The notes under the pieces were generated by a model. It saw nothing but the letters and a program-made list of their open reading frames with translations, was not told where the DNA came from and ran no database searches. From NCBI GenBank assembly GCA_027065555.1, contig JAMONS010000064.1, positions 1-37,329 of the forward strand: DNA of 37,329 nucleotides. Direction: 5' to 3'. Source of the DNA: Hyphomicrobiales bacterium (GTDB taxonomy: Bacteria > Pseudomonadota > Alphaproteobacteria > Rhizobiales > Devosiaceae). Made by a program: the position numbers and the translations under genes. Shown here one piece after another: positions 7,800 to 28,624 of the stretch; positions within the stretch are counted from its first letter, which is position 1; every line of letters begins with the position of its first letter.

Positions 7800-8309
7800 A
7801 TGGCAGAAGAAGAGCAAGTTAAAGAAGAAGGCCTAGAAGAGAATGGCGAGGCTAGTGAAGAGCAGCCAGTTAAGAGTAAGAAGAAGCTGTTCATTTTTGC
7901 AGGTGCGGGCGTTCTGTTATTATTGATAGCTGCTGGGGCGGCGTATTTCTTTTTGTTTGCTGGGGCAGGTAAAGATGCTGATCCTATTGAGCAAGCGGAA
8001 CCTGTGTTCTTTTATAATATGGAAACTTTAACGGTTAACTTGGCTACCAGTGGTGATGAAATACAAAAATTTCTAAAAATTTCTGTGTCTTTAGAACTTG
8101 AAAAAGAAAGCATGATGGAAATCATCACTCCAAGAATGGTTAGGGTTCAAGACGCGTTTCAAGTATATTTAAGAGAGCTGCGTCCAAGCGATCTTGAGGG
8201 GTCTGCTGGTATATATAGGTTAAAGCAAGAGCTGCTTAAGCGAGTGAATTTAGCAATTTATCCTGCGAAAGTTGAAAATATATTGTTCAAAGAAATTCTG
8301 GTGCAATAA
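7800..8309 (+). CDS. fliL: Flagellar basal body-associated protein FliL
   Basis: 169 residues: a charged cytoplasmic tail (1-29), one membrane helix (about 31-53, KLFIFAGAGVLLLLIAAGAA), and a periplasmic domain with VFFYNMETLTVNL, FLKISVSLELE, ITPRMVRVQDAFQVYLREL and LLKRVNLAIYPAKVENILF. FliL surrounds and supports the stator units. The stop overlaps the fliM start (TAATG). First gene of a plus-strand operon running through fliM and motE, with a CtrA-like box upstream. Confidence 0.95.
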   Translation: MAEEEQVKEEGLEENGEASEEQPVKSKKKLFIFAGAGVLLLLIAAGAAYFFLFAGAGKDADPIEQAEPVFFYNMETLTVNLATSGDEIQKFLKISVSLELEKESMMEIITPRMVRVQDAFQVYLRELRPSDLEGSAGIYRLKQELLKRVNLAIYPAKVENILFKEILVQ

Positions 8310-9508
8310 TGGCTGATAATGAAACAGGCGAAATTTCTCAAGAGTGGGATTTAGGTGATTTAGAGGAAAGTAAGAGCTCTTCCTCTAGCGATAGTGAACA
8401 GAGCGCTGATTCTGGAGCTAGCGACGATGATATGGCGGCCGAATGGGCTGCAATGATTGAGGGTGGTGGCGATGGCGAAGAAGAGGGTGGTGGTGCCTCT
8501 GAAGATCGTGTGCTTGATCAAGATGAAATTGATAATTTGTTGGGGTTTGATCCCAATGTTAGCGATAGTGCTGAACTTTCTGGAGTTCAATCATTAATTA
8601 ATTCGGCGCTAGTTTCCTATGAGCGTTTGCCGATGCTTGAGATTGTGTTTGATAGGCTTGTTCGTCTCGCAACCACATCCTTGAGGAATTTTACTTCTGA
8701 TAATGTTGAGGTTTCACTCGATTCAATAACATCGGTTCGGTTCGGAGATTACCTTAATTCAATACCTTTGCCAGCTATTTTAAGTGTGATTAAAGCTGAA
8801 GAATGGGATAATTATGGTCTTTTGACAGTTGATTCTAGTCTTATATATTCAATGATTGATGTTTTGTTGGGCGGTCGTCGTGGCTCAAGTGTTGTAAGGG
8901 TTGAGGGGCGACCTTATACAACTATTGAAATGGCGCTTGCAAATCAAATGATTGAAGTGATTTTGGCAGATACTAAAAAGGCTTTTGAGCCATTAACTAC
9001 TGTTACATTTAATGTTGAGAGGCTTGAAACAAACCCAAGATTTGCCACCATTTCCCAACCTGCTAATGCAGCAATATTAATTGAACTTCGCATTGATATG
9101 GATGATCGGGGCGGGAAGATTGAAATCTTATTGCCATATGCAACAATAGAGCCAATTCGTGAGCAATTATTGCAAGCGTTTATGGGCGAGAAGTTTGGAC
9201 GTGATACAGTATGGGAGGGACATTTAGCTAGTGAAGTATTTGCATCAGATACAAATATTGAAGCCGTTTTGCACGAGATGGATGTTCCGCTATCCAAGCT
9301 TATGAAATTGGCTGTTGGTGATAATTTTATGTTTGAGCAATCGCCTAGTGACCCAATTAAATTACGTTGTGGGGATGTTGAATTAAGCGAGGGTGTTATG
9401 GGGCATGTTGGAAAGTATATTTCAATAAGAGTAACAAAACCGCTTAACCCACCAAAAGTTACTATGGCGGTATTTGAAGCACTTGATGAGCAGATGGAGA
9501 ATAGATGA
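8309..9508 (+). CDS. fliM: Flagellar motor switch protein FliM
   Basis: 399 residues, about 60 longer than enterobacterial FliM because of an acidic, serine-rich head (1-66, with EWAAMIEGG) before the CheY-P-binding motif VLDQDEIDNLLGF (68-80). The CheC-like middle domain has PLPAILSVIKAEEWDNYGLL and LLGGRRGSS; the C-terminal SpoA/FliN-like domain has LRCGDVELSEGVMGHVGKY. It forms the C-ring rotor and controls switching. Overlaps the next gene by ATGA, so coupling is expected. Confidence 0.97.
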   Translation: MADNETGEISQEWDLGDLEESKSSSSSDSEQSADSGASDDDMAAEWAAMIEGGGDGEEEGGGASEDRVLDQDEIDNLLGFDPNVSDSAELSGVQSLINSALVSYERLPMLEIVFDRLVRLATTSLRNFTSDNVEVSLDSITSVRFGDYLNSIPLPAILSVIKAEEWDNYGLLTVDSSLIYSMIDVLLGGRRGSSVVRVEGRPYTTIEMALANQMIEVILADTKKAFEPLTTVTFNVERLETNPRFATISQPANAAILIELRIDMDDRGGKIEILLPYATIEPIREQLLQAFMGEKFGRDTVWEGHLASEVFASDTNIEAVLHEMDVPLSKLMKLAVGDNFMFEQSPSDPIKLRCGDVELSEGVMGHVGKYISIRVTKPLNPPKVTMAVFEALDEQMENR

Positions 9509-15597: not shown

Positions 15598-17331
15598 ATG
15601 TCTGCTATAAAGGCTCGTTACTTACTGGAGTCTTTAATTTTGGCAATTCTAATTTTTCTATTACATTTGGCGGCAGCGACCATGCTGTTACTGTTTGGGG
15701 TGCGTATGGTTCGCACAGGCATTGAGAGGGCTATGGGGCCTTCGTTTAAGAGGTTGGTTACAGGTGCGAAGAGCAATATTATTCAAGGGGCATTTGCTGG
15801 CACAATATTAGCTATTATTTTGCAAAGTTCAGCCGCAACTGCGATTTTGGCAACTGGATTTGCCGCATCAGGTCTTATAACTATTACTATGGGATTGGCC
15901 ATAGTACTTGGCGCTGATCTTGGTTCAGCTTTAGTTATTCAAGTTCTTTCATTTAGACCCGATTGGTTAATTCCAATATTACTAGTTATTGGTGGCTGGT
16001 TATTCCTTAACACCCAATCTTTAACCTCAAAGCAAGTTGGGCGTATTTTCCTTGGTATTGCTTTTATTTTGTTGGCGCTTGGCATGATAAGTGCCGCCTC
16101 AACTCCAATTAAGGAAAGTGAATTTTTACCAGTTATCGCTTCATATCTGGAGAGTGAATATGTTACCGCATTTTTACTTGGTGCTTTGCTTACCTTTATT
16201 ATGCACTCATCGGTTGCCGCAATTTTAATGTTCGTAACATTTATTCAACTTGGATTGTTACCATTATCGGTTGGCATATCTATGGTATTGGGAGCAAATT
16301 TGGGCAGTGCTTTGGTATCTTTATGGCTGACAAAGGGAATGGAAATTTCAGCACGCCGCATTCCTGTTGCAAACTTATTGTTGCGTGGTTTTGGGGCAAT
16401 GTTGGCGCTTTATGCAGTGAAAAAATTGCCTATTACAGAGATGCTTTCAGGCTTTGGGCTAGGGCAAACTCTAGTTAATGCACATTTATTATTTAATCTT
16501 GTTTTATTGATTATTTCTTTGCCATTAATAAAATTAGTTCTTAAACCGCTAGAAAAAATGATGCCTGCAGCTATTAGCAAAGCTACAAAGGATAACTTAA
16601 AAGCTGCAAGCGCTCTTGATAAGAGCGCTTTAGATAAACCCACTTTGGCTCTTGCTAGCTTACGGCGAGAGATTTTACGAATGGGGGCGATTGTTGAAAC
16701 CATGATGCGCCCTGTTATGGAATTATATCAATCTGGTGATAGTGAGCAAATCAAGGAAATTCGACTAATGGACAAAGGAGTAAATGCTTCGCTCACCGCC
16801 ATTCGTCGTTATGTTTCTTCACTTGATAGATCAAAAATGAGCAAAAAAGACAATCGCTCTGCACGAGAATTAACCGATTATGCCATCAATCTTGAAATTG
16901 CTGGAGATATTGTTACTAAGCGCTTATTGGTTTTGGCTGAAAAATATAATCAGCGACATCTAAAGTTTTCAGATAGTGGTTGGGGTGAATTAGTAAGAAT
17001 GCAAGAGCGTATTGTGGCAAATATGACATTAGCATTTAACGTGCTTATTTCCCAAGATATAGAATCGGCTCGTCTATTGGTTGAAGAAAAAACCGAAATA
17101 ACAGCCCTTGAGCGTAAAAGCCGCAACAAACATCTTAAACGCTTACGACAGGGTGATGAAATAAGTTTTGAAAGCTCTGATATTCATCTTGAAACTTTGC
17201 GTGCATTAAAAGATTTCAATTCACAAATCTCAACTCTTGCTTATTCTATTCTTTATCGCTCGGGGCAATTACTTGAAACACGTCTGGTTGAAAATCCAAA
17301 TTTGGGTGATGAAATAGAGAAATCGAAATAA
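15598..17331 (+). CDS. Na/Pi cotransporter family protein with PhoU-like domain
   Basis: 577 residues. The membrane half (about 15-315) contains the two inverted Na/Pi repeats: GVRMVRTGIERAMGPSFKRL, QSSAATAILATGFAASGLI with GADLGSALVIQ, and MHSSVAAILMFVTFIQLGL with GANLGSALVSL. After a helical hairpin, residues about 350-560 form a PhoU-like four-helix region (LRREILRMGAIVETMMRPV onward). Members of this NptA/YjbB-like family move phosphate with sodium; YjbB exports phosphate. The gene stands alone, 10 bp from the convergent oxidoreductase. The start is uncertain: no clear ribosome binding site, and TATAAT overlaps the ATG. Confidence 0.9.
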   Translation: MSAIKARYLLESLILAILIFLLHLAAATMLLLFGVRMVRTGIERAMGPSFKRLVTGAKSNIIQGAFAGTILAIILQSSAATAILATGFAASGLITITMGLAIVLGADLGSALVIQVLSFRPDWLIPILLVIGGWLFLNTQSLTSKQVGRIFLGIAFILLALGMISAASTPIKESEFLPVIASYLESEYVTAFLLGALLTFIMHSSVAAILMFVTFIQLGLLPLSVGISMVLGANLGSALVSLWLTKGMEISARRIPVANLLLRGFGAMLALYAVKKLPITEMLSGFGLGQTLVNAHLLFNLVLLIISLPLIKLVLKPLEKMMPAAISKATKDNLKAASALDKSALDKPTLALASLRREILRMGAIVETMMRPVMELYQSGDSEQIKEIRLMDKGVNASLTAIRRYVSSLDRSKMSKKDNRSARELTDYAINLEIAGDIVTKRLLVLAEKYNQRHLKFSDSGWGELVRMQERIVANMTLAFNVLISQDIESARLLVEEKTEITALERKSRNKHLKRLRQGDEISFESSDIHLETLRALKDFNSQISTLAYSILYRSGQLLETRLVENPNLGDEIEKSK

Positions 17332-17341
17332 GTTTTATATT

Positions 17342-18586
17342 TTAAGCTTCAATAAATTCAACTTTTATAGGGCTATTTTCTTTTATTGTTGCAAGATCTT
17401 TAATATCAGAAAGCGAAATAAGTATGCGCCTTTGTGGGAACACACTCAAGTTACGTGAATAAATCACTTCATCATCATTTGATAATATCAATTTACCCTT
17501 CATTAAACGATCAAAGCGTAATTGAATATGGCTCATTCCAATATTTTCTTTTATGCCTGTCAAACATTGTGGAACGGCAAGTTTAACATTTTTGCTCACC
17601 TCAATTTTTGTTAAAATATGCCTAGATTGCAATTTGCTAGCTAAATCTAGAGCAACCCAATTAGCAATTTGCTTGCCCTCATTCCAACACCAGCCTGCTG
17701 TTTCAACAGGCCTTAAAATATTACCAGCAGCGTAATAAACAGGGTCAGAGCATCGCCCAAACTGATCAATAATCGGCCCATTAGTAGCTGGATCAATTTC
17801 AAGATGCCCAAGCCGTGCAAGCGAAGATTCGGGTATAAAGTGCCCACATAAAATTACTCCATCGCATTTAATGGTTTTGATTTGGCCGTTTGATTTTTTT
17901 ATTTCAACAGCACTCACTTTATTAGAGCCAATTATTTTTATTAATTTGCTACTTCTATGAAGTGGTATTTGCATTAAGGGTGCATATAATTCAACAGGCC
18001 AGCGAGCAATTACTTTGTCCGCTTCTTCAATTATAGCAACGGGTTTTATTTTTGCATGAGAGCAGGTTCTTATTGCAGAAAAAGCCACTAATTCCGAACC
18101 AATAATCACTGGATTTTCAAAAGGTTTTTGATTTCGTAAATATACCATTTGCTGCAATGCGCCAGTATTTAGCACGCCTTGCACCCTATCTCCAGAAATC
18201 AGCCTTGCCGAACGTGTCTTTTCTCGCACCCCACAAGCGTAAATAATGCGTGAAGCTGAAATTTCTTTTGTGCCTTCATTTGTGACTAATAATAAATGCC
18301 CCCCCCTTCTCATTTCTACAACGCTAGTTGAGAGCCAAATTTCAACGCCAGCATTTTTTGCGCTTTTAACGAGCTTCTTGGCATATTTAGTGCCAGTTAA
18401 AACACGGCCATATTCACGCATTCCAAAGGGAAAATCTCCACAATGGCGTGGAATGCCGCCAGCTTCATTTTCACGCTCAAGCACAACAACCCGCTTAATA
18501 CCAAGTCTTTTCAACTCAATAGAAGCAGAAAGCCCAGCAGGGCCTGCACCAATAATTGCCACATCTATTTGTTGCGCTTTATTCAT
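17342..18586 (-). CDS. FAD/NAD(P)-dependent oxidoreductase, partner of the GlpA-like protein
   Basis: 414 residues. An N-terminal dinucleotide fold DVAIIGAGPAGLSASIELKR (8-27) is followed by ERENEAGGIPRHC and GMREYGRVLTGTKYA; later pieces are YACGVREKTRSARLISGDR, VQGVLNTGALQQM and YYAAGNILRPVETAGWCWNE. This is the pyridine-nucleotide-disulfide-reductase-like protein that pairs with GlpA-like BFD oxidoreductases in many bacteria and carries electrons from the FAD dehydrogenase. Its ATG overlaps the end of the upstream partner by 8 bp, so the two are coupled. No GlpC or DUF1667 third subunit is present. Confidence 0.85.
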   Translation of the reverse strand: MNKAQQIDVAIIGAGPAGLSASIELKRLGIKRVVVLERENEAGGIPRHCGDFPFGMREYGRVLTGTKYAKKLVKSAKNAGVEIWLSTSVVEMRRGGHLLLVTNEGTKEISASRIIYACGVREKTRSARLISGDRVQGVLNTGALQQMVYLRNQKPFENPVIIGSELVAFSAIRTCSHAKIKPVAIIEEADKVIARWPVELYAPLMQIPLHRSSKLIKIIGSNKVSAVEIKKSNGQIKTIKCDGVILCGHFIPESSLARLGHLEIDPATNGPIIDQFGRCSDPVYYAAGNILRPVETAGWCWNEGKQIANWVALDLASKLQSRHILTKIEVSKNVKLAVPQCLTGIKENIGMSHIQLRFDRLMKGKLILSNDDEVIYSRNLSVFPQRRILISLSDIKDLATIKENSPIKVEFIEA

Positions 18587-20033
18587 TTTTTAGCTTTTGT
18601 TTTTTGCTCTTATTAAAATAACTATCAGCAATTTCTGTTACATGAGAGGAACAATAAAAGCCCTGACAGCGTCCCATTGTTGCACGAGTTTGCCTTTTTA
18701 AACCTGCCATTGAGTTTGCTTTTAATGCACCAGTTAGGGCGGCTAAGATTTCACGCTTGCTTACCATTTCACAATGGCAAATAATCTCGCCATGATCTTT
18801 TTCTTGCCAATCACGTTTTGAATTTTGGGCACGTTTTGAATTTTGGGCTAATAATGGGGTTGGTTTAGGAAGTTTTGGTCTATTTATTTTATCGTGTTTT
18901 TGCCCCAAACTTGAGTATTTTTTATAGACATATTTAGCAATTCCTAGCGCCCCACTAAGACCTGTTGATCTTATACCACCAACGCTTATCCAATTGTTTT
19001 TTGGCTCAATTTCGATTTGGTAATCCTTATACTGCGTGGCGGGTCGTAAGCCTGCATAAGTTGCGGTGATAGGCATGTCTTTAAGAGATGGTATTTTAGC
19101 AATCCCTGCTTTTATTAGACCTTTAAGTGTAGCTTCATCAGTTGAACTATTAGAACGGCTTGATTGATCCTCAGCCGTTGGGCCAACTAATAAGTTTCCA
19201 AATATGGTTTTGCAAACCACTAAACCTTTTGTGCGGGGAGTTGGAACAGGAAGAATAATTGAATTAGCTAGGTTTGATGCCGCTTTATCAAATATTACGA
19301 ATTGGCCTTTGCGAGGGGTAATGTTAAAACTTGAATGTCCGAGAAGTACTTTATTAAGCCTATCACCATAAAGACCTGCGCAATTTATTACGTATCGAGT
19401 TTTAATAGTTCCAAGCGTTGTTTTTAATTGCCAAATATCTTTATCAAAATCTCCACTAATAACTTGGCAAGAAAGAAATATTTGCGCTCCGTTTTCTATT
19501 GCTTGATGCAAATAAGCATAAGGAGCTGACCATGGATCAATTATTGCTTCATCGGGAATAAAAACTGCACCAAGAGCATTTTTGGCTAAGTGTGGCTCTT
19601 TTTGAGCAAGCAATTTTGCACTTATTATTCTAGCATTTTTAATACCATTTTGATGTGCTTTAGCTTTTATGTCATCAAGAGCTGCTAATTCATCTTCATT
19701 CCAAGCAACAACATAGGCGCCAATTTTTTCTAATGGCAGGCCTAGCTGTTTATGGATTTTTGTATATTCTAAATAACCATCCTTTACACATGCCAGTTCA
19801 ATCGAGTTAATAGGTGCATCAAAACCAGTGTGCAAAATTGCACTATTGGCTTTGCTTGCGCCATCAAGAATATCACTAGCTTTTTCAATTATAGCTACTT
19901 TTGCACCCTCTAAGGTGAAACGTCTGGCAACAGCACAACCCACTACGCCAGCGCCAATTACGGCAATATCAAACACATCACTTGCCAGCTCACCTTGTTT
20001 TGGGTTATCAAATTGTTGTTGTGATATTGTCAT
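18579..20033 (-). CDS. GlpA-like FAD oxidoreductase with C-terminal [2Fe-2S] BFD domain
   Basis: 484 residues. A DAO fold opens with DIAVIGAGVVGCAVARRFTL and EKASDILDGASKANSAILH TGFD-type, as in glycerol-3-phosphate dehydrogenases; TYAGLRPATQYKDYQIE and GGIRSTGLSGALGIA follow. The tail has ICHCEMVSKREI and MGRCQGFYC, four cysteines of a BFD-like [2Fe-2S] domain. Shorter than E. coli GlpA (about 540). The ATG at 20033 has AGGA at 8 nt. Substrate is likely glycerol-3-phosphate or a related hydroxy compound (inference from the family and the neighbouring DeoR and phosphodiesterase). A perfect 18-bp tandem duplication inserts AQNSKR twice before the BFD domain. Confidence 0.85.
   Translation of the reverse strand: MTISQQQFDNPKQGELASDVFDIAVIGAGVVGCAVARRFTLEGAKVAIIEKASDILDGASKANSAILHTGFDAPINSIELACVKDGYLEYTKIHKQLGLPLEKIGAYVVAWNEDELAALDDIKAKAHQNGIKNARIISAKLLAQKEPHLAKNALGAVFIPDEAIIDPWSAPYAYLHQAIENGAQIFLSCQVISGDFDKDIWQLKTTLGTIKTRYVINCAGLYGDRLNKVLLGHSSFNITPRKGQFVIFDKAASNLANSIILPVPTPRTKGLVVCKTIFGNLLVGPTAEDQSSRSNSSTDEATLKGLIKAGIAKIPSLKDMPITATYAGLRPATQYKDYQIEIEPKNNWISVGGIRSTGLSGALGIAKYVYKKYSSLGQKHDKINRPKLPKPTPLLAQNSKRAQNSKRDWQEKDHGEIICHCEMVSKREILAALTGALKANSMAGLKRQTRATMGRCQGFYCSSHVTEIADSYFNKSKKQKLKNE
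18813..18848. repeat. 18-bp in-frame tandem duplication inside the GlpA-like gene
   Basis: ACGTTTTGAATTTTGGGC occurs twice back to back (18813-18830, 18831-18848). Being 18 bp it keeps the frame and duplicates AQNSKR in the linker between the FAD and BFD domains. Such perfect copies point to a recent slippage event. Confidence 0.95.
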
Positions 20034-20104
20034 CAATATATCCTGTTATGACTAAGTGCTACTTAAAAATGGCTATTCGGTCAATTACTATCTTTGGGGA
20101 AAAA

Positions 20105-20866
20105 ATGAAAATTAAGCGCCGACAAGCAAAAATTCTTGAAATTATACGTAAAGAAGAACGTGCTTCTGTGGAATATTTAGCAGTAAAACTAGATATTTCG
20201 CGTGAAACCATTCGGCGTGACCTCACCGATTTAGCAAAAGTGGATAAAGTCCAAAAAATTCACGGTGGCGCTACTTTGCCACAACATTTTGGTGAAGCTT
20301 CTTTTCAACAACGTATGTCTGATAATGCTTTTGAAAAAGCAAAAATTGCTTCTAAAGCATTGCAGTTTTTTACATCAGGGGAAACTATATTTATAGATAC
20401 TGGTTCTACAACCCTATATTTTGCAGAAAAACTATCGGAAATTTCTGGGCTAACCATTGTTACTAACTCGACAGAATTGGCAAGAATAATTTCTTCTTCA
20501 AATTCTGATAATCAAGTTTTTTTACTTGGGGGAGAATTTAGCTCTGACAATCGCCAAACAGTTGGGACTATGGCAATTTCTCAAATTAGGCAATTTCGAG
20601 CGCATCATGCAGTATTAACGGTTGGGGCGCTTGATGGGCGCACTGGTGCAATGGACTATAATATTGAGGAAGCGCAAATTGCTAGCGCAATGATTGAACA
20701 ATCTCAATCGCTCACAGTTTTAATGGATAGTTCAAAATATGATCAGCTTGCTTCATTTGAAGTGTGCTCGTTAGAAAAAATTGATAGGCTTATTTGTGAT
20801 AAATTGCCAACAGATAAGCTTTTAGAGTTTTTGCAGGTAGCAGATGTAGATGTCATACTTGCTTAA
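20105..20866 (+). CDS. DeoR/GlpR-family transcriptional repressor
   Basis: 253 residues from the ATG at 20105, which has GGGGA at 6 nt; the frame is open further upstream to 19982 but would run into the divergent gene. The DeoR helix-turn-helix (about 3-57) reads RRQAKILEIIRKEERASVEY, LDISRETIRRDLTDLAK and KIHGGATLP. The sensor domain has IFIDTGSTTLYFAEKL and LLGGEF, typical of sugar-phosphate-sensing members such as GlpR. It is divergent from the GlpA-like operon with a 71-bp shared spacer and is followed by the ABC operon, so it probably represses both in the absence of a phosphorylated inducer. Confidence 0.9.
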   Translation: MKIKRRQAKILEIIRKEERASVEYLAVKLDISRETIRRDLTDLAKVDKVQKIHGGATLPQHFGEASFQQRMSDNAFEKAKIASKALQFFTSGETIFIDTGSTTLYFAEKLSEISGLTIVTNSTELARIISSSNSDNQVFLLGGEFSSDNRQTVGTMAISQIRQFRAHHAVLTVGALDGRTGAMDYNIEEAQIASAMIEQSQSLTVLMDSSKYDQLASFEVCSLEKIDRLICDKLPTDKLLEFLQVADVDVILA

Positions 20867-21242
20867 ATTTATTATACTTGTCTAAACTTATTATTGCTGT
20901 TCAATTAAATTTAGTTTTTTAATATTTTCTTTTTGAGCGCTGCAAATGCGTCAAAAGCTAACTTTCTCACAGGTTGTTATGTAAGTATCTATGTTAAAAC
21001 TTTCATTAAATATGTAAAAAGTCGCTAAATTGTATAAATTTTTGACTATTAGGCTAGTAATTCTGTGGTTTTTGTCATAATGTGGTTATATTAGATAGAT
21101 ATTTATTAATTGCATCGATGAAATCTATGCAAAAACTAGAACTGGTTTAACTGATCTGATTTGGGTAATAATAGATTTTTTGATGTTGGTGAGGCTAAGT
21201 TATCTGTCTGAAAGGTAACAAGATTAACAAGGGAACAAACTT
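20867..21242 (+). promoter_or_regulatory. Leader/promoter region of the ABC importer operon
   Basis: 376 bp, AT-rich, no gene seen. It should hold the promoter of the solute-binding-protein gene and operators for the DeoR protein. The inverted repeat TTGCAT / ATGCAA (21110-21115 and 21127-21132, 11 bp apart, with the palindrome CATCGATG inside) is the best operator candidate, about 110 bp before the ATG. I could not fix a -35/-10 pair. Confidence 0.4.
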
Positions 21243-22301
21243 ATGAAATCTAATATATTTAAAATTTTCACACTTGCAGCACTTGGTGTTACAGCTCTTG
21301 CGGGCTCGGTATCAATTGCTAATACTGAGGAATTAAGAATCGTAGGCTGGGGCGGCACAACTCAAGCCGCACATAAACCAGCTTATTTCGAACCATTTAC
21401 GCAAGAGACTGGCATTAAAGTTGTCGAAGACGAATGGAGTGGCGAAAAGGCTAAAATTCGTGCCATGGTTGAAACTGGAAATATAACTTGGGACGTTGTT
21501 CAAGTTGAAGGTCCAACTGTTGATCAGGGTTGTGAAGAAGGTTTGTTTGAAGAGCTTGATTGGTCAAGAATTACCGACAAAGCCAATATGGTTGACGGCA
21601 CAGTTAAAAAATGTGGTGCTGGCATTTTGATTTGGTCAGTTATTTTTGCTTATGATGGCGACAAGATTACTGGTGATGTCCCACAGAACTGGGCAGATTT
21701 CTGGAATGTTGAGAAATGGCCAGGCAAGCGTGGATTGCGCGGTAAACCAAAACCAATGCTTGAAATTGCGCTTATGGCTGATGGCGTTGCAAAAGAAGAC
21801 GTTTATAATGTTCTATCAACTCCTGAAGGTGTTGATCAGGCATTTGCAAAACTTGATGAACTTAAGCCAAATATCCTTTGGTGGAAAGCTGGCGCAGAGC
21901 CACAGCAACGTCTTGGTGCTGGTGATGTTGCTATGACCGCAGCTTATAATGCTTGGGTATATCGCATTGCTGACGAAGAAGGTAAGAACTTCAAAATGGT
22001 TTGGGATGGCAATCAGTTCTCAACTGATTATTGGACAATCATTAAAGGTTCTCCGAATATTGACGCAGCATATAAGTTCCTAGAGCTTTCAATGCGTCCT
22101 GATCGTCAAGCAGTATTCTTTAACAAAGTAACTTATGGCTGGACTGCTAAAGGAACTGGTGAATTTGTTGATGAAAAAGTGCTTCCACATCTACCAACCT
22201 ACGGTTCAAACATGGACAATGCTTTGGAAACAAGCGGTGCATTCTGGCTTGAGCATGGTGAAAGCCTTGAAAAACGCTTCCAAGCTTGGATGGCTAAATA
22301 G
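21243..22301 (+). CDS. PotD-type ABC transporter periplasmic solute-binding protein
   Basis: 352 residues with a signal peptide (MKSNIFKIFTLAALGVTALA, cleavage after SIA/N region) and a type II solute-binding fold: LRIVGWGGTTQAAHKPAYFE, TGIKVVEDEWSGEKAKIRAM, WDVVQVEGP, NWADFWNVEKWPGKRGLR and AMTAAYNAWVYRIADEEG. It belongs to the PotD/PotF-like cluster, whose members bind polyamines but also other small solutes; the neighbouring phosphodiesterase and GlpA-like enzymes argue against polyamine. A good AAGGGA ribosome binding site precedes the ATG. A terminator hairpin follows, which would give more binding protein than permease. Confidence 0.88.
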   Translation: MKSNIFKIFTLAALGVTALAGSVSIANTEELRIVGWGGTTQAAHKPAYFEPFTQETGIKVVEDEWSGEKAKIRAMVETGNITWDVVQVEGPTVDQGCEEGLFEELDWSRITDKANMVDGTVKKCGAGILIWSVIFAYDGDKITGDVPQNWADFWNVEKWPGKRGLRGKPKPMLEIALMADGVAKEDVYNVLSTPEGVDQAFAKLDELKPNILWWKAGAEPQQRLGAGDVAMTAAYNAWVYRIADEEGKNFKMVWDGNQFSTDYWTIIKGSPNIDAAYKFLELSMRPDRQAVFFNKVTYGWTAKGTGEFVDEKVLPHLPTYGSNMDNALETSGAFWLEHGESLEKRFQAWMAK

Positions 22302-22317
22302 GTTTTAATATTAGATA

Positions 22318-22349
22318 TGACTGGCGGGATTTTTCTTGCCAGTCATTTT
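22318..22349 (+). terminator. Terminator/attenuator after the solute-binding protein
   Basis: A perfect 8-bp stem TGACTGGC / GCCAGTCA (22318-22325, 22338-22345) with a 12-nt loop, followed by TTTTC. It lies 17 bp past the binding-protein stop, inside the operon, as is common for ABC importers. Confidence 0.75.
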
Positions 22350-22381
22350 CTTGAATAATATCATAGTGATATTATTGTGCT

Positions 22382-22454
22382 AAAAAGCGAGATGAACGTT
22401 AATTTTTGATGTTTCCTCCATATTTTTCTATATAGTTTAATATCTCGCTTTTTT
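22382..22454 (+). terminator. Second long-range hairpin before the permease genes
   Basis: AAAAAGCGAGAT (22382-22393) is the exact reverse complement of ATCTCGCTTTTT (22442-22453), with a 48-nt loop and a T-run at the 3' side. It may be a further attenuator or protect the upstream mRNA 3' end. TATAAT at 22459-22464, just after it, could be the -10 of an internal promoter, but no good -35 was found. Confidence 0.4.
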
Positions 22455-22500
22455 GCTCTATAATATTCTGACATGCCATATACTGGGGAGGTGATTGGCA

Positions 22501-23733
22501 ATGGTTTTTAGATCAGACGAGGGGGTTGGCCTTCGTAAGAAATTATTACGCGCTGAGCGCCGTAAGAAATTTGAGGCGCTTGGACTGATTGCGCCACTTC
22601 TTCTCGTTATGTTGGTTTTTTATTTTGTGCCGATTGCGATGATGTTATTTCGCTCTATTGATAATTCCCAAATGGCTAGAATTCTTCCGCAAACCAGTGA
22701 GGCTATTCAAACATGGTCGGGTGAAGGGTTGCCTGATGAGGCGACTTATGCAGCAATTCTTGGCGATATGAAAATTGCCTATGAAGAAAAAACATTGGCA
22801 AAAGCTGGTCGTCGTCTAAATTTTGACTTGGTAGGTTATCACTCGCTTCTTTTAAAAACTGGGCGTAAAGTTGAGCAGATAGTTGAGCCTCCCTATAAAG
22901 AAACGCTTATTGCACTTGATAAAAAATGGGGTGATGTGCGTTATTGGACGGTGATGGAGCGAGGGCTTAAAGACACAACAATGATGTATCTTTTAGCGGC
23001 GGTTGATTTAAGATATGATGACGATAATAAAATTGTAAAAGTGCCAGAACAAGAGGCTATTTATATCTCTATTATTTCGCGCACGGTTTATATTTCGCTC
23101 TCAATTACCATTCTTACACTTATTCTGGGTTTTCCAGTCGCCTATTATATGGCGAATGCTAAACCTCGCACCAGAAACTTGCTGATGATTGTTTTATTAT
23201 TGGTGTTTTGGACTTCGCTTTTGGTGAGAACTTTAAGTTGGATTTTGGTTTTACAAAATAACGGGGTGGTCAATAATTTATTGATGTTTAGTGGGATAAT
23301 TTCACAACCACTTGATTTGGTATTTAACCGATTTGGGGTCTATGTCGCCATGACGCATGTATTATTGCCGTTTATGGTATTGCCGCTTTATAGTGTGATG
23401 CGGGCAATCCCATCGGATTATGTCCGTGCGGCTCGCTCGCTTGGGGCAAAATCAATCACTGCCTTTATCAGAGTATATTTGCCGCAAACGCTACCCGGAA
23501 TTGGCGCTGGTGCTTTGATGGTGTTTATTCAGGCACTTGGCTATTATATCACTCCAGCACTGGTTGGTGGGCCAAGAGATCAGATGGTTAGTTATTTTGT
23601 TGCGTTCTTTGTTAATGAGCAGGTGAATTGGAGCATGGCTTCTGCGCTTGGGGTTACGCTGCTTATTCTTACTGGATCGCTTTATTTAATTTTTGGCAAA
23701 CGTGTCAACATCGCAAACATGAAGTTAGGGTGA
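22501..23733 (+). CDS. PotB-type ABC transporter permease
   Basis: 410 residues. A first membrane helix (about 32-52, LIAPLLLVMLVFYFVPIAMM) is followed by a 140-residue soluble segment before the core permease helices (from about 190). The EAA loop reads YVRAARSLGAKSITAFIRVY then LPQTLPGIGAGALMVF. The long insertion after helix 1 is usual in the alphaproteobacterial branch. ATG 22501 is preferred (GGGGAGG at 10 nt) over TTG 22495. Pairs with the next gene to form the channel. Confidence 0.9.
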   Translation: MVFRSDEGVGLRKKLLRAERRKKFEALGLIAPLLLVMLVFYFVPIAMMLFRSIDNSQMARILPQTSEAIQTWSGEGLPDEATYAAILGDMKIAYEEKTLAKAGRRLNFDLVGYHSLLLKTGRKVEQIVEPPYKETLIALDKKWGDVRYWTVMERGLKDTTMMYLLAAVDLRYDDDNKIVKVPEQEAIYISIISRTVYISLSITILTLILGFPVAYYMANAKPRTRNLLMIVLLLVFWTSLLVRTLSWILVLQNNGVVNNLLMFSGIISQPLDLVFNRFGVYVAMTHVLLPFMVLPLYSVMRAIPSDYVRAARSLGAKSITAFIRVYLPQTLPGIGAGALMVFIQALGYYITPALVGGPRDQMVSYFVAFFVNEQVNWSMASALGVTLLILTGSLYLIFGKRVNIANMKLG

Positions 23734-23737
23734 TAAA

Positions 23738-24568
23738 ATGGCATTACCTGCACATGCAACAATTGGTGATAAAGTCTGGCATTATTCATTCAGAACGCTA
23801 GTTGCCATAATATTTATTTATCTGATTGTTCCTATTTTTTCGATTATCCCATTGTCGTTTAATTCTGCTGAATTGCTTTCTTATCCGATGAAGGGGTTTA
23901 GTTTACGGTGGTATGAAGAATTTTTTGGCTCGGGGCGCTGGGGGCTGGCGATTAAAAACTCCCTTATTATTGGTCTGTCCTCAATGGTTTTTGCAACTAT
24001 TTTAGGCACAACAGCTGCTGTTGGTATAAACCGAGCCAACTTTGCCGGTAAGGCGTTAGTAGTTGCATTACTAATTTCGCCAATGATGATACCTTTGGTT
24101 ATCACCGCACTTTCACTATATTTATTCTTTGCCAAACTTGGATTAAATTCAACATATACAGGGCTTATTTTAGCGCATACAATTTTAGGTATACCCTTTG
24201 TTATAATAACTGTTAGCGCTACTTTGCAAAGTTTTGATTATAATCTTATGCGGGCAGGGGCTTCACTTGGGGCTTCGCCATTGCGGGTGTTTTTCAAAAT
24301 TGTCTTGCCAAATATTGCTCCGGGGGTATTTTCTGGTGCGCTATTTGCCTTTGCAACTTCATTAGATGAAGTGGTTGTGGTGATGTTTATTGCAGGGCCT
24401 TCTCAAAGAACAATCCCCCGTGAGATGTTCTCTGGTATTCGTGAAAATCTTAGCCCGACATTATTGGCAGCGGCGACAATTTTAATTGTGTTTGCCGCAA
24501 TGCTTATGTTGACTTTGGAACTTTTACGCAAACGAAGTGAAAAATATAATGCGCCTCCAGGTAAATAG
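23738..24568 (+). CDS. PotC-type ABC transporter permease
   Basis: 276 residues with six predicted membrane helices: VAIIFIYLIVPIFSIIPLSF near the start, SLIIGLSSMVFATILGTTAA, VVALLISPMMIPLVITALSL and a last helix near ATILIVFAAMLMLTLELL. EAA loop: LMRAGASLGASPLRVFFKIV. It begins 4 nt after the previous gene, so the two permeases are probably made together. The 3' end enters a three-unit 15-bp tandem repeat that contains the stop codon. Confidence 0.92.
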   Translation: MALPAHATIGDKVWHYSFRTLVAIIFIYLIVPIFSIIPLSFNSAELLSYPMKGFSLRWYEEFFGSGRWGLAIKNSLIIGLSSMVFATILGTTAAVGINRANFAGKALVVALLISPMMIPLVITALSLYLFFAKLGLNSTYTGLILAHTILGIPFVIITVSATLQSFDYNLMRAGASLGASPLRVFFKIVLPNIAPGVFSGALFAFATSLDEVVVVMFIAGPSQRTIPREMFSGIRENLSPTLLAAATILIVFAAMLMLTLELLRKRSEKYNAPPGK

Positions 24569-24605
24569 TATAAGTGCAAATAGTATGAGAGCAAATAGAA
24601 TGAAT
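24561..24605 (+). repeat. Three 15-bp imperfect tandem repeats over the permease stop
   Basis: GTAAATAGTATAAGT, GCAAATAGTATGAGA and GCAAATAGAATGAAT follow one another. Since 15 is a multiple of three, each unit repeats the TAG stop in the same frame. The last unit leads into the ribosome binding site of the next gene. Confidence 0.8.
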
Positions 24606-24616
24606 GAGAGTTTTTG

Positions 24617-25483
24617 ATGTTGATTGCGCAAATAAGCGACCCTCATATCACTGAGAAAGGCAAGAAGGCCTATGGAATTGCGCCGAGCAACGATAATCTT
24701 GCTCGCACTATTTTGCATATTAATAGGTTTAAGCCAAAAATAGATGTTGTATTGGTAAGTGGTGATATTGCTAATGATTGTTTGCTTAAAGAAACTCAAC
24801 ATGCGCAAAGCCTGCTAAACGAGTTGAATTGCCCATATTATATTGTTCCGGGAAACCATGATGATAGAGAGAATTTATTCTCAGTATTTGGAGGCAAAGC
24901 TATTCCTGCAATTCCTTCTGTGGAGAATAGTTTTATAAATTATGTGGTTGAGGAATATGATGTTCGCTTGATTGGCATGGATAGCGTAAAGGAAAATTCT
25001 CCGGGTGGAGAAATATGTCAAACAAGGTTGCAATGGCTGAGTGAATGTCTGGCAAGAGAGCCGCACAAATCAACAATTATCTTTATGCATCACCCACCAA
25101 TAAAATGTTCGGTACTTGAAACAGACATTGATGGATTTGAGGGGGCAGAAGAATTTGGCGAATTAATTGCAAAATTTTCTAATATAAAAGCAATAATTTG
25201 TGGCCATATTCATTTGCCAACCCATAGCCTATGGAATGGATCTATTGTTAGCACTGCACCAAGCACAGGAATGCAGCTTGGGCTTGATTTGAGTATGCAA
25301 AAGCAATCTGAATTTTATTTAAACGAAACTGGTTATCGCCTTCATCATTTTACAAAGCATAAAGACTTAATTTCACACACAATATATGTGCGAGAAAACA
25401 ATGATGGCCCATATCCATTTATAGAGCATCGTGATGGCAGTTTAGCTAATGAAGCGGCACAGGAGTTAAAGAATGAGCAATAA
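24617..25483 (+). CDS. Calcineurin-like metallophosphodiesterase (GpdQ/CpdA-like)
   Basis: 288 residues with all five metal-binding motifs of the family: ISDPHI (DxH, 7-9), VLVSGDIAND, YIVPGNHDDRE, IIFMHHPPIKC and ICGHIHLPTH. Class III cyclic-nucleotide and glycerophosphodiester phosphodiesterases look like this. It carries no signal peptide, so it is cytoplasmic and would act on imported substrate. It sits between permease and ATPase genes (its stop overlaps the ATPase start by 11 bp), strong evidence that it works on what the transporter brings in. ATG 24617 chosen over TTG 24614. Confidence 0.88.
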   Translation: MLIAQISDPHITEKGKKAYGIAPSNDNLARTILHINRFKPKIDVVLVSGDIANDCLLKETQHAQSLLNELNCPYYIVPGNHDDRENLFSVFGGKAIPAIPSVENSFINYVVEEYDVRLIGMDSVKENSPGGEICQTRLQWLSECLAREPHKSTIIFMHHPPIKCSVLETDIDGFEGAEEFGELIAKFSNIKAIICGHIHLPTHSLWNGSIVSTAPSTGMQLGLDLSMQKQSEFYLNETGYRLHHFTKHKDLISHTIYVRENNDGPYPFIEHRDGSLANEAAQELKNEQ

Positions 25484-26561
25484 AGATTATCATGTAAGAT
25501 TTAAGAATGTTCAAAAAAGCTATGATGGCAAAACTCTTGTTGTCAAAGACCTTAATTTGGATATTGAAAAGGGTAAATTTGTAACCATGCTTGGCCCGTC
25601 AGGTTCTGGAAAAACTACCTGCTTAATGATGTTGGCTGGTTTTGAAAGCACTACTCATGGCGAAATTGTTCTTAATGGTAAGCCGATAAATAAAATTCCA
25701 CCACATAAGCGTGGCATTGGCATGGTGTTTCAAAATTATGCACTTTTCCCGCACATGAGCGTGGCGCAAAATTTGGCGTTTCCCTTAGAGGTGCGTAAGT
25801 TTGGAAAAGCAGAAGTAGAAGAGATGGTTAAGAGCGCCTTAGATATGGTGCAAATGGGTGCATTTATTGATCGTTATCCGGGTCAGCTTTCGGGCGGGCA
25901 AAAACAACGTATTGCGCTTTCTCGTGCTTTGGTTTTTAAGCCTGAACTTGTGCTTATGGATGAGCCGCTTGGTGCTTTGGACAAGCAATTACGTGAGCAA
26001 ATGCAATATGAGATTAAACATATTCATGAGCAGCTTGGGGTTAGTGTGGTTTATGTAACCCATGATCAGGCGGAAGCGCTAACTATGTCGGATCAGATTG
26101 CGGTGTTTAACGACGGAATTATTCAGCAATTAGCAAGTCCTGCCGATTTATATGAGCGACCTGAAAATAGCTTTATTGCGCAATTTATTGGTGAGAATAA
26201 TCAGCTTGAGGGCGTTATTGAAAAAACGAATAAAAATATTGCGCAAGTGAAGTTGAAAAACGGTGAAAAAGTTTCTGCTCTAATGGTTGATGTTAAGGAC
26301 AAGGGCGAAAAGACCCTTTTGTCTATTCGCCCTGAACGTGTGGTTATTAATCCCAAAGCCAGCAAAAACTCACAGGCATTAGAGGGGAAAGTGCTTGAAT
26401 TGATTTATCTTGGCGATCATATTCGTTGTCGTATGATGGTTGCTCAAAATGATCAATTTATCGTCAAAGTGCCAAACTCCTCATTTCATGCACAATTAAA
26501 AGAGGGCGAAAGCGTTAAGCTTTCATGGGATAAAAATGATTGTCGTGCGCTTAAACCGTAA
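25473..26561 (+). CDS. PotA-type ABC transporter ATP-binding protein
   Basis: 362 residues. Walker A GPSGSGKTT (about 38-46), Q-loop FQNYALFPHMSV, signature LSGGQKQRIALSRAL, Walker B ELVLMDEPLGALD and switch VTHDQAEALTMSD are intact. A C-terminal TOBE-type region (about 235-360, IGENNQLEGVIEKTNKN onward) is typical of the CUT1/polyamine importer ATPases. Completes the importer with the binding protein and two permeases. Convergent with the kinase pseudogene. Confidence 0.93.
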   Translation: MSNKDYHVRFKNVQKSYDGKTLVVKDLNLDIEKGKFVTMLGPSGSGKTTCLMMLAGFESTTHGEIVLNGKPINKIPPHKRGIGMVFQNYALFPHMSVAQNLAFPLEVRKFGKAEVEEMVKSALDMVQMGAFIDRYPGQLSGGQKQRIALSRALVFKPELVLMDEPLGALDKQLREQMQYEIKHIHEQLGVSVVYVTHDQAEALTMSDQIAVFNDGIIQQLASPADLYERPENSFIAQFIGENNQLEGVIEKTNKNIAQVKLKNGEKVSALMVDVKDKGEKTLLSIRPERVVINPKASKNSQALEGKVLELIYLGDHIRCRMMVAQNDQFIVKVPNSSFHAQLKEGESVKLSWDKNDCRALKP

Positions 26562-26626: not shown

Positions 26627-27499
26627 TTATTTCTCATTATGAGAAAAATGCTTCACTGCAAGTAAAACCGCTCCACTTAAAGCATCTCCTTTAGGCTCAC
26701 AAATTCTCTCTTTATATTTTTTATTCAAAAATTTAATATATTTTTCTCCAAGTCCACCCAACATATATAGGTTTTCATCACCCCTAAACGTCATAGCTTC
26801 TATTGCTTCCTCAATATTTACAACTGCATCTTTTATTATTTTATTGGCAATTAAATCATTCTTTTGGGCAAATTCAAAAATCTTAGGAGCGAGTTCGCCG
26901 AACTTTGCTGGGGTTGCCTTGCTTGCAAATTCAACAATTGCCTGTGGGCTGTTATCAAAATATTCAAGCACATATTTTGTTAGTTTTGAGCCTTGATGTA
27001 TTTTATCATAACATAAAAGCGTCTCCTGCAAGAGCTAATGACCAAGTTTTGCGCCACTTCCATGATCGCCTAATAAAAAACCCCAGCCGCCAATTATATT
27101 TATTTCACCCCTAATTTTTGAAATAAATACTGAGCCCGTGCCAATTATAGCAGCAATTCCGTTCTCATCATTAACTGCTCCAGCCAGAGCTAGACTAGCA
27201 TCACTGTCAATATAATAATCATTAAAAGGCAAAGTGGTTTTTAATTCTGCATTAAAATCTTTAAGATTTGCTCCAGCTAACCCTAGATAAACATCGGCTT
27301 CATAAATCACTTCTTTTGCAAGTCCTGCTTCTTTTATTGCCTTTTGACTAGCCTTTATAATATTGGCGCAACTTCCTTTGAAATTTGTAGCAATATTTGC
27401 CGATCCTGCTCCGCCATATCCCAAATGTTTGCCTAAGCGATCACAAACTATAGCACGACAGCCTGTCCCACCCCCATCTATACCAATCAAAATAGACAT
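26627..27499 (-). pseudogene. BadF/BadG-type sugar kinase (GlcNAc kinase-like) with in-frame amber codon
   Basis: The reading frame encodes a normal-length (about 290 residues) BadF-type ATPase/kinase: MSILIGIDGGGTGCRAIVCD (phosphate 1), YLGLAGANL, AAIIGTGSVF and GGWGFLLGDHGSGAKLGH. Directly after LGH there is a TAG (27037-27035), then the same frame goes on LLQETLLCYDKI through YMLGGLGEKYIKFL to the C-terminus GAVLLAVKHF. No frameshift is needed: one nonsense codon breaks it. The ribosome binding site (AAGGAG) is intact, so the damage looks recent; a sequencing error is the alternative. Other genes here end in TAG (flgA, PHP, solute-binding protein), so readthrough by recoding is unlikely. 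Confidence 0.8.
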
Positions 27500-27597: not shown

Positions 27598-27759
27598 ATG
27601 CAAATAAGCCGATCTAAACATGAATTTTTGGTGTCCGACATCTGCGCGATCGGGTTAGATGTATCGATTAAGAATACCGAATTGTCCTATATTATTTTGG
27701 TGACTACAACCAGATCGGGTTCGACCATGCTCTTTTGCCAGCACGATCAATTATTGTGA
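27598..27759 (+). CDS. Small 53-residue ORF of unknown origin
   Basis: ATG at 27598 with GAGGAG at 5 nt opens a 53-codon frame (starts MQISRSKHEFLVSDICAIG, ends FCQHDQLL). I do not recognise the protein; no membrane segment or motif is seen. Its last 56 bases run antisense over the end of the PHP gene. It lies where composition changes from AT-rich to more GC-rich, so it may be the remnant of a gene cut off when the aap-PHP block arrived, or chance. Confidence 0.3.
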   Translation: MQISRSKHEFLVSDICAIGLDVSIKNTELSYIILVTTTRSGSTMLFCQHDQLL

Positions 27760-28624
27760 TGCGAATCCATGGTGAGTTGGCTAGACGCTCTAGCGAAAGT
27801 TGTGTACTTGTCATTGATACGCCGTGCAGGGTTGCCATTGATGTGCCCTGACCCTGAACGATGATTGTTGCTGCTGAGGAACAATCAACCTCGATATATT
27901 CTTTGAATATACGGATATCGTGAATATCTGGGCCAGTACTGGAATAATACTCACCTGCCCTTAGGGCTGCCAAAAGCGCCTCTGGGGAGTTTTCCTTCGC
28001 CTTGACCATAACCCATCCACCAAAAAAATCAGGGGAATTAAAATGTGCATCATCAGCAGCGATAAGGGTTAGGTGGCGATCTTTGTTCAGCAGATATTCT
28101 AGAGTTAAGAAACCTTCACCTCGATCATTGTCCACCACGCAACCATGATTGTAAATCTCTACCGCATGAGCTGCTCGAATTGAAAGGGCATCGGCCTCGC
28201 TCAAGCCAGACCAGTGCGGATGCGCAATAACCACAAATGCGCCTGCATCCCTCGCCCGTTGCGCTATATCAGCGGCAGATTCTGAGCCTCTGATAGGATG
28301 AAAATTGGGTGCATTCGGTGGTGTAAAATCAGCAGGAAGTCCGATGCCCAGCATATGCCATAGATGGCCGTTTTCCATAGCACCTGTGTGCAATTCTGCT
28401 CCTAGTATAGTGGTAAATCCATCTTTACGACATTTTGTTGTATCTGTAATCGGGTAGTCGAACAGACCAACAAAATGATCTGTCAGAGAAATAAAATCAT
28501 ACCCTTCAGCATGATAGCGGCGACAGACCTCGCTTGGATCAAGCACACCGTCTGAGCAGGTGGAATGGGTATGTAAGTTACCACGATAAAATTTGCCTTT
28601 GGCGGTGAAAAAACTTGTGGGCAT
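27704..28624 (-). CDS. PHP-domain metallohydrolase (CehA/McbA-like)
   Basis: 306 residues. PHP motifs appear in order: GNLHTHSTCSDG (HxH...D), GYDFISLTDHF, LGAELHT, VVIAHPHWSG and LIAADDAHF, so the metal site is complete. The last 80 residues are a beta-rich domain (YYSSTGPDIHDIRIF onward). PHP proteins of this group hydrolyse phosphoester or amide bonds; the substrate here is unknown. It starts 29 bp after aapP on the same strand and is probably the last gene of the aap operon. By eye its GC content (about half) is higher than that of the ABC locus to the left. Confidence 0.85.
   Translation of the reverse strand: MPTSFFTAKGKFYRGNLHTHSTCSDGVLDPSEVCRRYHAEGYDFISLTDHFVGLFDYPITDTTKCRKDGFTTILGAELHTGAMENGHLWHMLGIGLPADFTPPNAPNFHPIRGSESAADIAQRARDAGAFVVIAHPHWSGLSEADALSIRAAHAVEIYNHGCVVDNDRGEGFLTLEYLLNKDRHLTLIAADDAHFNSPDFFGGWVMVKAKENSPEALLAALRAGEYYSSTGPDIHDIRIFKEYIEVDCSSAATIIVQGQGTSMATLHGVSMTSTQLSLERLANSPWIRITIIDRAGKRAWSNPIWL

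Follow-up and report, generated by a model that had tools for sequence, protein, structure and literature searches.

The question raised by this locus is why an importer of the polyamine type should carry a phosphodiesterase gene within its operon. The DNA analyzed, called here the window, is a stretch of 37,329 nucleotides from a bacterium of the order Hyphomicrobiales, and the locus under study occupies its positions 17342–26561. The original prediction had described there a DeoR/GlpR-type repressor, a Pot-type ATP-binding cassette (ABC) importer, a GpdQ-like phosphodiesterase (PDE) embedded among the importer genes and a divergent pair of oxidoreductases, forming a path of import, cleavage and oxidation. 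All of these genes were found as open frames at their assigned positions, and the path is one that we infer with the support of genomic evidence. The locus is probably devoted, under GlpR-type regulation, to the use of a glycerophosphodiester, either a deacylated phospholipid or a related glycerol phosphate diester.

The conservation of the gene set was studied in other genomes. For this, species genomes were scanned using four aligned PDEs, which gave at least 80 loci, and 101 PDEs were placed together with E. coli CpdA in a quick IQ-TREE phylogeny (LG+G4, supported by the Shimodaira–Hasegawa-like approximate likelihood ratio test (SH-aLRT) only). The PDE of the window falls in a clade of 25 (SH-aLRT 100) that comprises the window, L034–L036 and L061–L081, and whose members belong, by record title, to Pseudomonadota, Thermodesulfobacteriota and Chloroflexota. 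Since the PDE served as bait in collecting every locus except that of the window, its occurrence in these loci is no proof by itself, and what is informative is the comparison with the 76 loci that fall outside the clade. The glycerol 3-phosphate (G3P) dehydrogenase pair, or part of it, was present in 18 of the 25 clade loci and in 0 of the 76 outside. Among the 20 nearest PDE loci listed (43–57% identity), 15 had the pair or part of it and 12 had both genes, and none of the other 60 listed had either, despite longer stretches. A PotABCD-type binding protein adjoins the PDE in 17 of the 25 clade loci, and it is of two types, type A in three of them (window, L034 and L079) and type B in 14, mostly in the order binding protein, ATPase, permease, permease and PDE; eight loci have none. 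Types A and B are only 16–23% identical, so the partnership with the PDE and the G3P dehydrogenase was either established or maintained with two importers that are not orthologous. The gene set is not accidental. A search for the same set in other genomes had been proposed as a check, with a PDE that is not co-conserved with the importer as the outcome that would count against the path, and the pairing in 17 of 25 loci with two unrelated PotABCD-type importers speaks for it.

Close relatives differ in how much of the locus they keep. L034, in genome G094 of the same order, has the same genes in the same arrangement at 60–85% identity until its contig ends inside the ATPase gene. In L079, a metagenome-assembled genome of Desulfobulbaceae, the importer genes are 67–72% identical to those of the window, yet the PDE just 43%, which suggests horizontal transfer. 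By component, the binding protein is 83% identical in L034, 67% in L079 and 65% in L186 (genome G008), the PotB/PotH-type permease 81% in L034 and 71% in L079, and the PotC/PotI-type permease 83% and 72%. L035, in genome G006 (same genus code as G094), has retained the PDE together with the repressor, the flavoprotein and the oxidoreductase; a glycerol kinase precedes the PDE, and neither a type A nor a type B importer was found in the 20 kb inspected. Within the clade, L061, L065, L070, L071 and L036, among others, lie on short contigs, and L073 and L077 are closely related.

The importer was then compared with true polyamine systems. Its substrate-binding protein (21243–22301, plus strand), of type A and not a canonical PotD or PotF, matched only SBP_bac_8 (E 5e-42) and SBP_bac_1 in Pfam at E 1e-3, with no PhnD-type match, and scored 53 bits against the NCBIfam equivalog cut-off of 582 for PotD and 36 against 636 for PotF; its predicted structure (AlphaFold), with a predicted local distance difference test score (pLDDT) of 33.5, is too poor to be used. 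It is followed by a PotB/PotH-type permease (22495–23733, plus; PotH 166 bits, below cut-off), a PotC/PotI-type permease (23738–24568, plus; PotC 181 bits, below cut-off) and, after the PDE gene and overlapping it by 11 bases, a PotA-type ATPase with a TOBE domain (25473–26561, plus; TIGR01187 potA 373 bits; TOBE_2). The binding protein and both permeases are of the Pot class and far under the curated cut-offs, in such a way that only the ATPase clears a Pot-class threshold, that of the broad potA subfamily (355.6 bits).

The residues that hold the polyamine were compared by alignment with PotD and PotF of E. coli MG1655. According to an excerpt of PMC8666671, D39, E185, D247 and D278 (PotF numbering) are at least 96% conserved in 250 PotF relatives. 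In the binding protein of the window, aligned at about 21% identity, G, P and W replace the first three, and D278 is kept. When three type A and 11 type B sequences were compared, D278 was retained in 14/14. The D39 site has G in 3/3 of type A and 8/11 of type B, with D in L062 and L078 and H in L074b, the second paralogue of L074; at the E185 site P or M appears in type A and L, T or M in type B, the E being retained only in L074b. The D247 site is W in 3/3 of type A and K (6), I (3), S (1) or P (1) in type B. The type B proteins further show K (6), E (4) or S (1) at T35 of PotD and K (9), R (1) or H (1) at its D168 (n = 11 for both), and retain all three tryptophans of the aromatic box of PotD. 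As judged from these alignments, both importer types have lost most of the polyamine-holding carboxylates, and this loss, with the gain of lysines, would fit an anionic or zwitterionic phosphate ligand. The claim that an importer annotated here as a polyamine one would be misnamed thus agrees with the scores and with the replacement of three of the four carboxylates, and a spermidine- or putrescine-specific binding protein, the other outcome named as contrary to the path, does not seem to be what the locus encodes.

The PDE (24614–25483, plus; Metallophos E 6e-20), GpdQ-like and predicted to be cytoplasmic, has GpdQ as its closest solved relative by sequence (E 5e-33), ahead of Rv0805 (E 7e-17). 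Its predicted model (pLDDT 89.3) found its best fold match in GpdQ as well (Z 35.5, root mean square deviation (rmsd) 1.8, 258 residues, 28% identity), the values for full-length Rv0805 being Z 32.8 and rmsd 3.0. The metal-ligand motifs are invariant across 18 aligned sequences; the fold is that of calcineurin, and the ligands of the dinuclear metal site are D, H, D, N, H, H and H. The specificity of class III PDEs is not readable from sequence, as stated in an excerpt of PMC4222275, and therefore it is the gene context that carries the argument.

This context includes the minus-strand arm, formed by a GlpA-like flavin adenine dinucleotide (FAD)-dependent G3P dehydrogenase or oxidase with a C-terminal BFD [2Fe-2S] domain (18579–20036, minus; DAO and Fer2_BFD) and an FAD/NAD(P)-binding oxidoreductase (17342–18586, minus; Pyr_redox_2 E 1e-18), a NOX-like partner of the former that passes no NCBIfam cut-off; the two genes overlap by 8 bases. 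The best solved relative of the flavoprotein is the Mycoplasma L-alpha-glycerophosphate oxidase 4x9m (E 6e-37), and the model for type 2 G3P oxidase (Mycoplasma GlpO) gave a higher score (233.6 of 460 bits) than that for GlpA (140 of 552.8), neither cut-off being passed, so that of the earlier label "GlpA-like/BFD" the BFD part stands and GlpA as the best model does not. The Fer2_BFD match has an E of 8e-9, and cysteines C420, C422, C457 and C462 are present in 29/29 sequences, window included; no GlpB or GlpC was found among the ten window proteins scanned. His69 aligns with His51 of MpGlpO, proposed as the catalytic base in an excerpt of PMC10726252, and is conserved in 28/29 sequences, window included.

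A comparison set free of the PDE was also analyzed, made up of the 12 genomes, out of 385 of the class and besides that of the window, with a flavoprotein relative at E 1e-110. In the 14–20 kb inspected around each of these loci (L165 begins at the contig end), the oxidoreductase adjoins the GlpA-like gene in 12/12 and no PDE match was found in any. The only sequence without the conserved His69 comes from L171, the most divergent of these 12 loci and also the single one lacking glycerol kinase; a kinase gene thus lies directly beside the pair in 11/12 PDE-free loci, versus 3/18 loci with both PDE and pair (Fisher p 9e-5, not corrected for relatedness and short contigs). Being rare with the PDE and near-universal without it, the kinase suggests that the PDE product is already phosphorylated, and we read the two as alternative front ends of one G3P-oxidizing module, the kinase for glycerol and the PDE for a diester. 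Within the PDE loci, GlpK is present in L035, L064, L074 and L067, the last with no GlpA-like gene found. The G3P logic of the original prediction is strengthened by these kinases and by their alternation with the PDE. In L035 the kinase lies at 8030–9441, between the oxidoreductase and the PDE, and is split into two open reading frames (ORFs) in the assembly. A TRAP-type transporter lies near three of the PDE-free loci (L160, L162 and L164), with DctM or DctP detected by Pfam in L160 and L164.

In the path that we propose, the PotABCD-type importer, with a binding protein that would no longer recognize polyamines, would bring the diester into the cytoplasm, where the dinuclear PDE encoded in the importer operon would cleave it into glycerol phosphate and an alcohol, the side of cleavage and the stereochemistry being presumed ones. 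The flavoprotein would oxidize the glycerol phosphate to dihydroxyacetone phosphate, with electrons passing through the [2Fe-2S] domain to the FAD/NAD oxidoreductase as the presumed acceptor. Both divergent arms, which flank the repressor region, would be repressed until the substrate arrives by the DeoR/GlpR-type protein (20105–20866, plus; HTH_DeoR and DeoRC), whose ORF spans 19982–20866, with a protein start around 20105 from the profile alignment. Its best NCBIfam models are of the GlpR/SrlR type (138–165 bits, all below cut-off); a shared GlpR operator was looked for in both intergenic regions and not found. Finally, surplus phosphate may exit through a neighboring Na/Pi-PhoU transporter.

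Other explanations have to be weighed against this one. That a polyamine importer carries an unrelated PDE gene by chance would agree with the Pot-class models of the permeases and the ATPase, the latter passing the potA subfamily cut-off, and is nevertheless rejected as very improbable, given that most carboxylates reported in the excerpt of PMC8666671 are lost and that two unrelated Pot-type importers have the same PDE and G3P dehydrogenase partners. The PDE could also be a cyclic-nucleotide enzyme like CpdA, SpdA or Rv0805, acting in signaling or in 2',3'-cyclic nucleotide salvage; its best NCBIfam matches are indeed SpdA (2',3'-cyclic nucleotide PDE, 120.2 bits) and CpdA (3',5'-cyclic AMP PDE, 105 bits), the limit on reading class III specificity favors the idea, and L035 carries near the module, upstream of the repressor, a gene for a CHASE2 protein with a class III guanylate/adenylate cyclase part (957–2963). 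However, both scores are far below their cut-offs (400 and 225), sequence and fold of the PDE are both closer to GpdQ than to Rv0805, and relatives of the catalytic part of that cyclase, found in 1/25 clade loci (L035 itself) versus 4/76 outside, are no commoner in the clade, so no link to cyclic nucleotides is seen; G3P dehydrogenase, GlpR and GlpK recur instead. We hold a cyclic-nucleotide role to be quite improbable.

Closer to the proposed path is the uptake of a monoester, G3P or glycerol 1-phosphate (G1P), with the PDE as an accessory that widens the diet. GpxB and UgpB bind both with micromolar dissociation constants, according to an excerpt of PMC12718374; the locus is inferred to oxidize G3P and some loci carry GlpK, and the constancy of the PDE is no argument against the idea, as the loci were gathered by it. 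Even so, the PDE would have no role if monoesters alone entered, GlpK appears where the PDE is absent, and the binding protein is of neither the PhnD nor the UgpB type, which leaves this alternative unlikely. The substrate could also derive from another polyol, either as a phosphodiester or in another phosphorylated form, with the GlpA-like pair and the FGGY kinase acting on a glycerol analogue, as the flavoprotein stays below the curated GlpA and type 2 G3P oxidase cut-offs and the kinases of L064 and L067 below both GlpK cut-offs. We find it improbable, because the best models and the best solved relative are glycerol or G3P enzymes, the kinase of L074 scores above one of the GlpK cut-offs (514 vs 498 bits) and the histidine base of MpGlpO is conserved.

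Several observations weigh against a glycerophosphodiester path itself. In the PDE, Met220 takes by alignment the position of GpdQ His217. For type A, residues were mapped at about 20% identity to PotD, which makes their assignment less safe, and D39 or E185 is retained in the few type B proteins named above. An orphan type A binding protein (L186, 5870–6931, 65% identical) lies on an 8 kb contig of G008 with no permease, ATPase or PDE, and no PDE was found in that genome at E 1e-20. Type A is rare, with relatives at E 1e-110 in 3/397 genomes of the order and 1/385 of the class, with the genome of the window included in each count; in a phylum sample (n = 398), relatives at E 1e-100 with 45–50% identity were found in 10 further genomes, and the two inspected showed no PDE or G3P dehydrogenase pair within about 10 kb. 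Plasmid relatives (47–50%; 40 listed of 991 matching records) adjoin aminotransferase genes in 4/4 examined, and the binding-protein family at large thus has no fixed link with phosphodiesters. In the clade, no importer adjoins the PDE in eight of 25 loci, of which four (L035, L064, L066 and L081) lie on stretches of at least 13 kb, and L081 is also without the G3P dehydrogenase pair. Canonical GlpK and GlpD are encoded elsewhere in the genome of the window, so that the use of glycerol itself does not depend on the locus. Finally, as a limit, the presence of ethanolamine and choline genes does not follow that of the locus.

The last point bears on the identity of the diester. In the 16 genomes searched for head-group genes (16/25 clade loci, window included), EutB was found in 2 and BetA above cut-off in 6, neither of them in the genome of the window, and ethanolamine and choline were rejected as the linked head group. 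Glycerophosphocholine and glycerophosphoethanolamine, the earlier examples, thus have no support from head-group genes, the absence of which is compatible with uptake for phosphorus or glycerol alone. One classical glycerophosphodiester phosphodiesterase (GDPD) gene lies elsewhere in the genome of the window; UgpB of E. coli gave no match at E 1e-3 in that whole genome, where the search had no positive control, and matched other loci. More tentatively, and with low confidence, the substrate may have glycerol on both sides, as glycerophosphoglycerol (from phosphatidylglycerol) or the osmolyte diglycerol phosphate have. The PDE would then give G3P plus glycerol, and the GlpK of some loci would rescue the second glycerol, which would explain both the lack of a recurring head-group gene and the presence of PDE and glycerol kinase together in some loci.

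Next to the locus, a gene for an Na/Pi cotransporter with a PhoU-like domain (15598–17331, plus; Na_Pi_cotrans and PhoU) is convergent with the oxidoreductase gene, 10 bases apart, and may possibly act as a phosphate valve. In L062 and L067 the PDE gene is directly followed by an Na/Pi symporter gene, L063 has a PiT-family permease and a DUF47 protein beside the pair, and L064 has PiT fragments after the PDE. An intact phosphate transporter was found in 4/25 clade loci (window, L062, L063 and L067) versus 2/76 outside (L050 and L098); as a core gene it is a weak candidate and was discarded, the queries having come from the same four loci. Downstream of the importer, a BadF/BcrA-type ATPase (NagK-like) gene (26627–27499, minus) is split, 27035–27499 matching the first half of the Pfam model only and 26627–27031 being a separate ORF without Pfam match, probably a frameshift or a remnant. 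A CehA/McbA-family PHP metallohydrolase gene (27704–28624, minus; 97 bits vs a cut-off of 80) sits between it and an amino-acid-type ABC importer.

More distant PDEs were also inspected. Outside the clade, the binding protein within 7 kb of the PDE is UgpB/CUT1-like in 13/76 loci, PhnS-like in 12/76 and neither in 51/76, so that the idea that distant PDEs generally lie beside Ugp holds only in part. Both classes include importers of phosphorus compounds, and CUT1 many sugar importers too, so these neighbors are putative ones; PhnS-likeness was confirmed by hidden Markov model in L122 and L124 only. In these two (L122, 5973–10819; L124, 6225–10819; the PDE of L124 is identical to that of L037, on an equally long contig) a PhnS-like binding protein, two permeases and an ATPase directly precede a GpdQ-like PDE, possibly a further class of phosphodiester importer. 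Plasmids match the PDE at E 1e-5 in 200 records of Escherichia and 61 of Enterococcus, the four Escherichia relatives listed being about 34% identical and annotated as phosphodiesterase (e.g., NZ_CP074703.1, 12203–12862).

Such importers are matched by Pot models, and annotation would label them as polyamine importers. If the glycerophosphodiester path is true, a set of Pot-type importers in at least three phyla takes up phospholipid-derived glycerol phosphate diesters, as an importer class additional to the routes of Ugp (CUT1) and Gpx (PhnD-type), and the reading of lipid-phosphorus recycling from metagenomes would change. It would also give a natural context to GpdQ-type enzymes, and the alternation of PDE and glycerol kinase is a directly testable prediction on the PDE product. 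In the case of a double-glycerol diester, three phyla would share a dedicated route in which a PotABCD-class importer serves to recycle glycerol phosphates that come from phosphatidylglycerol or are osmolytes.

The locus was finally compared with known systems. The PDE shares fold and metal-site motifs with GpdQ of Enterobacter aerogenes (2zo9, 3d03, 2dxl), from which it differs in the Met at His217. GlpO of Mycoplasma pneumoniae (4x9m) is the nearest solved type to the flavoprotein, although that route uses the GlpQ family, an oxygen-using GlpO without BFD domain and other transport. There, a deacylated phospholipid is likewise cleaved to G3P, as described in an excerpt of PMC3178575. With GlpABC, the locus flavoprotein shares the BFD domain with four cysteines, whereas it falls below the GlpA cut-off and has no GlpB or GlpC neighbors. 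The nearest described flavoprotein gene arrangement seen is GlpTk-NOX-MOX (excerpt of PMC11962113), in which a G3P dehydrogenase gene of the D-amino acid oxidase fold also adjoins an NADH-oxidase-type gene, whereas the minus-strand pair of the locus has no third (MOX) gene; the likeness is one of gene arrangement. GpxB of marine bacteria, which like Ugp imports G3P and G1P, is another ABC system for lipid-derived glycerol phosphates, with a PhnD/PhnT-family binding protein (excerpt of PMC12718374), whereas that of the locus is of the PotD-like SBP_bac_8 family. In agreement with the original prediction, which knew of no described pathway with this set, no PotABCD-class importer with a GpdQ-like PDE and a G3P dehydrogenase pair came up in searches of the Creative Commons-licensed literature of PMC, subscription papers being outside this scope. 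The system closest in logic is Ugp of E. coli (UgpBAEC with the cytoplasmic UgpQ), in which ABC import of glycerol phosphate compounds is likewise joined to a diesterase gene in the operon. UgpQ has the GDPD fold, whereas the diesterase of the locus is a GpdQ-type metallophosphoesterase, its importer is of the PotABCD class and not CUT1, with no UgpB-type binding protein, and it has its own GlpR and its own G3P dehydrogenase pair, in such a way that the gene content points most likely to a Ugp/UgpQ-like logic with a new class of importer.

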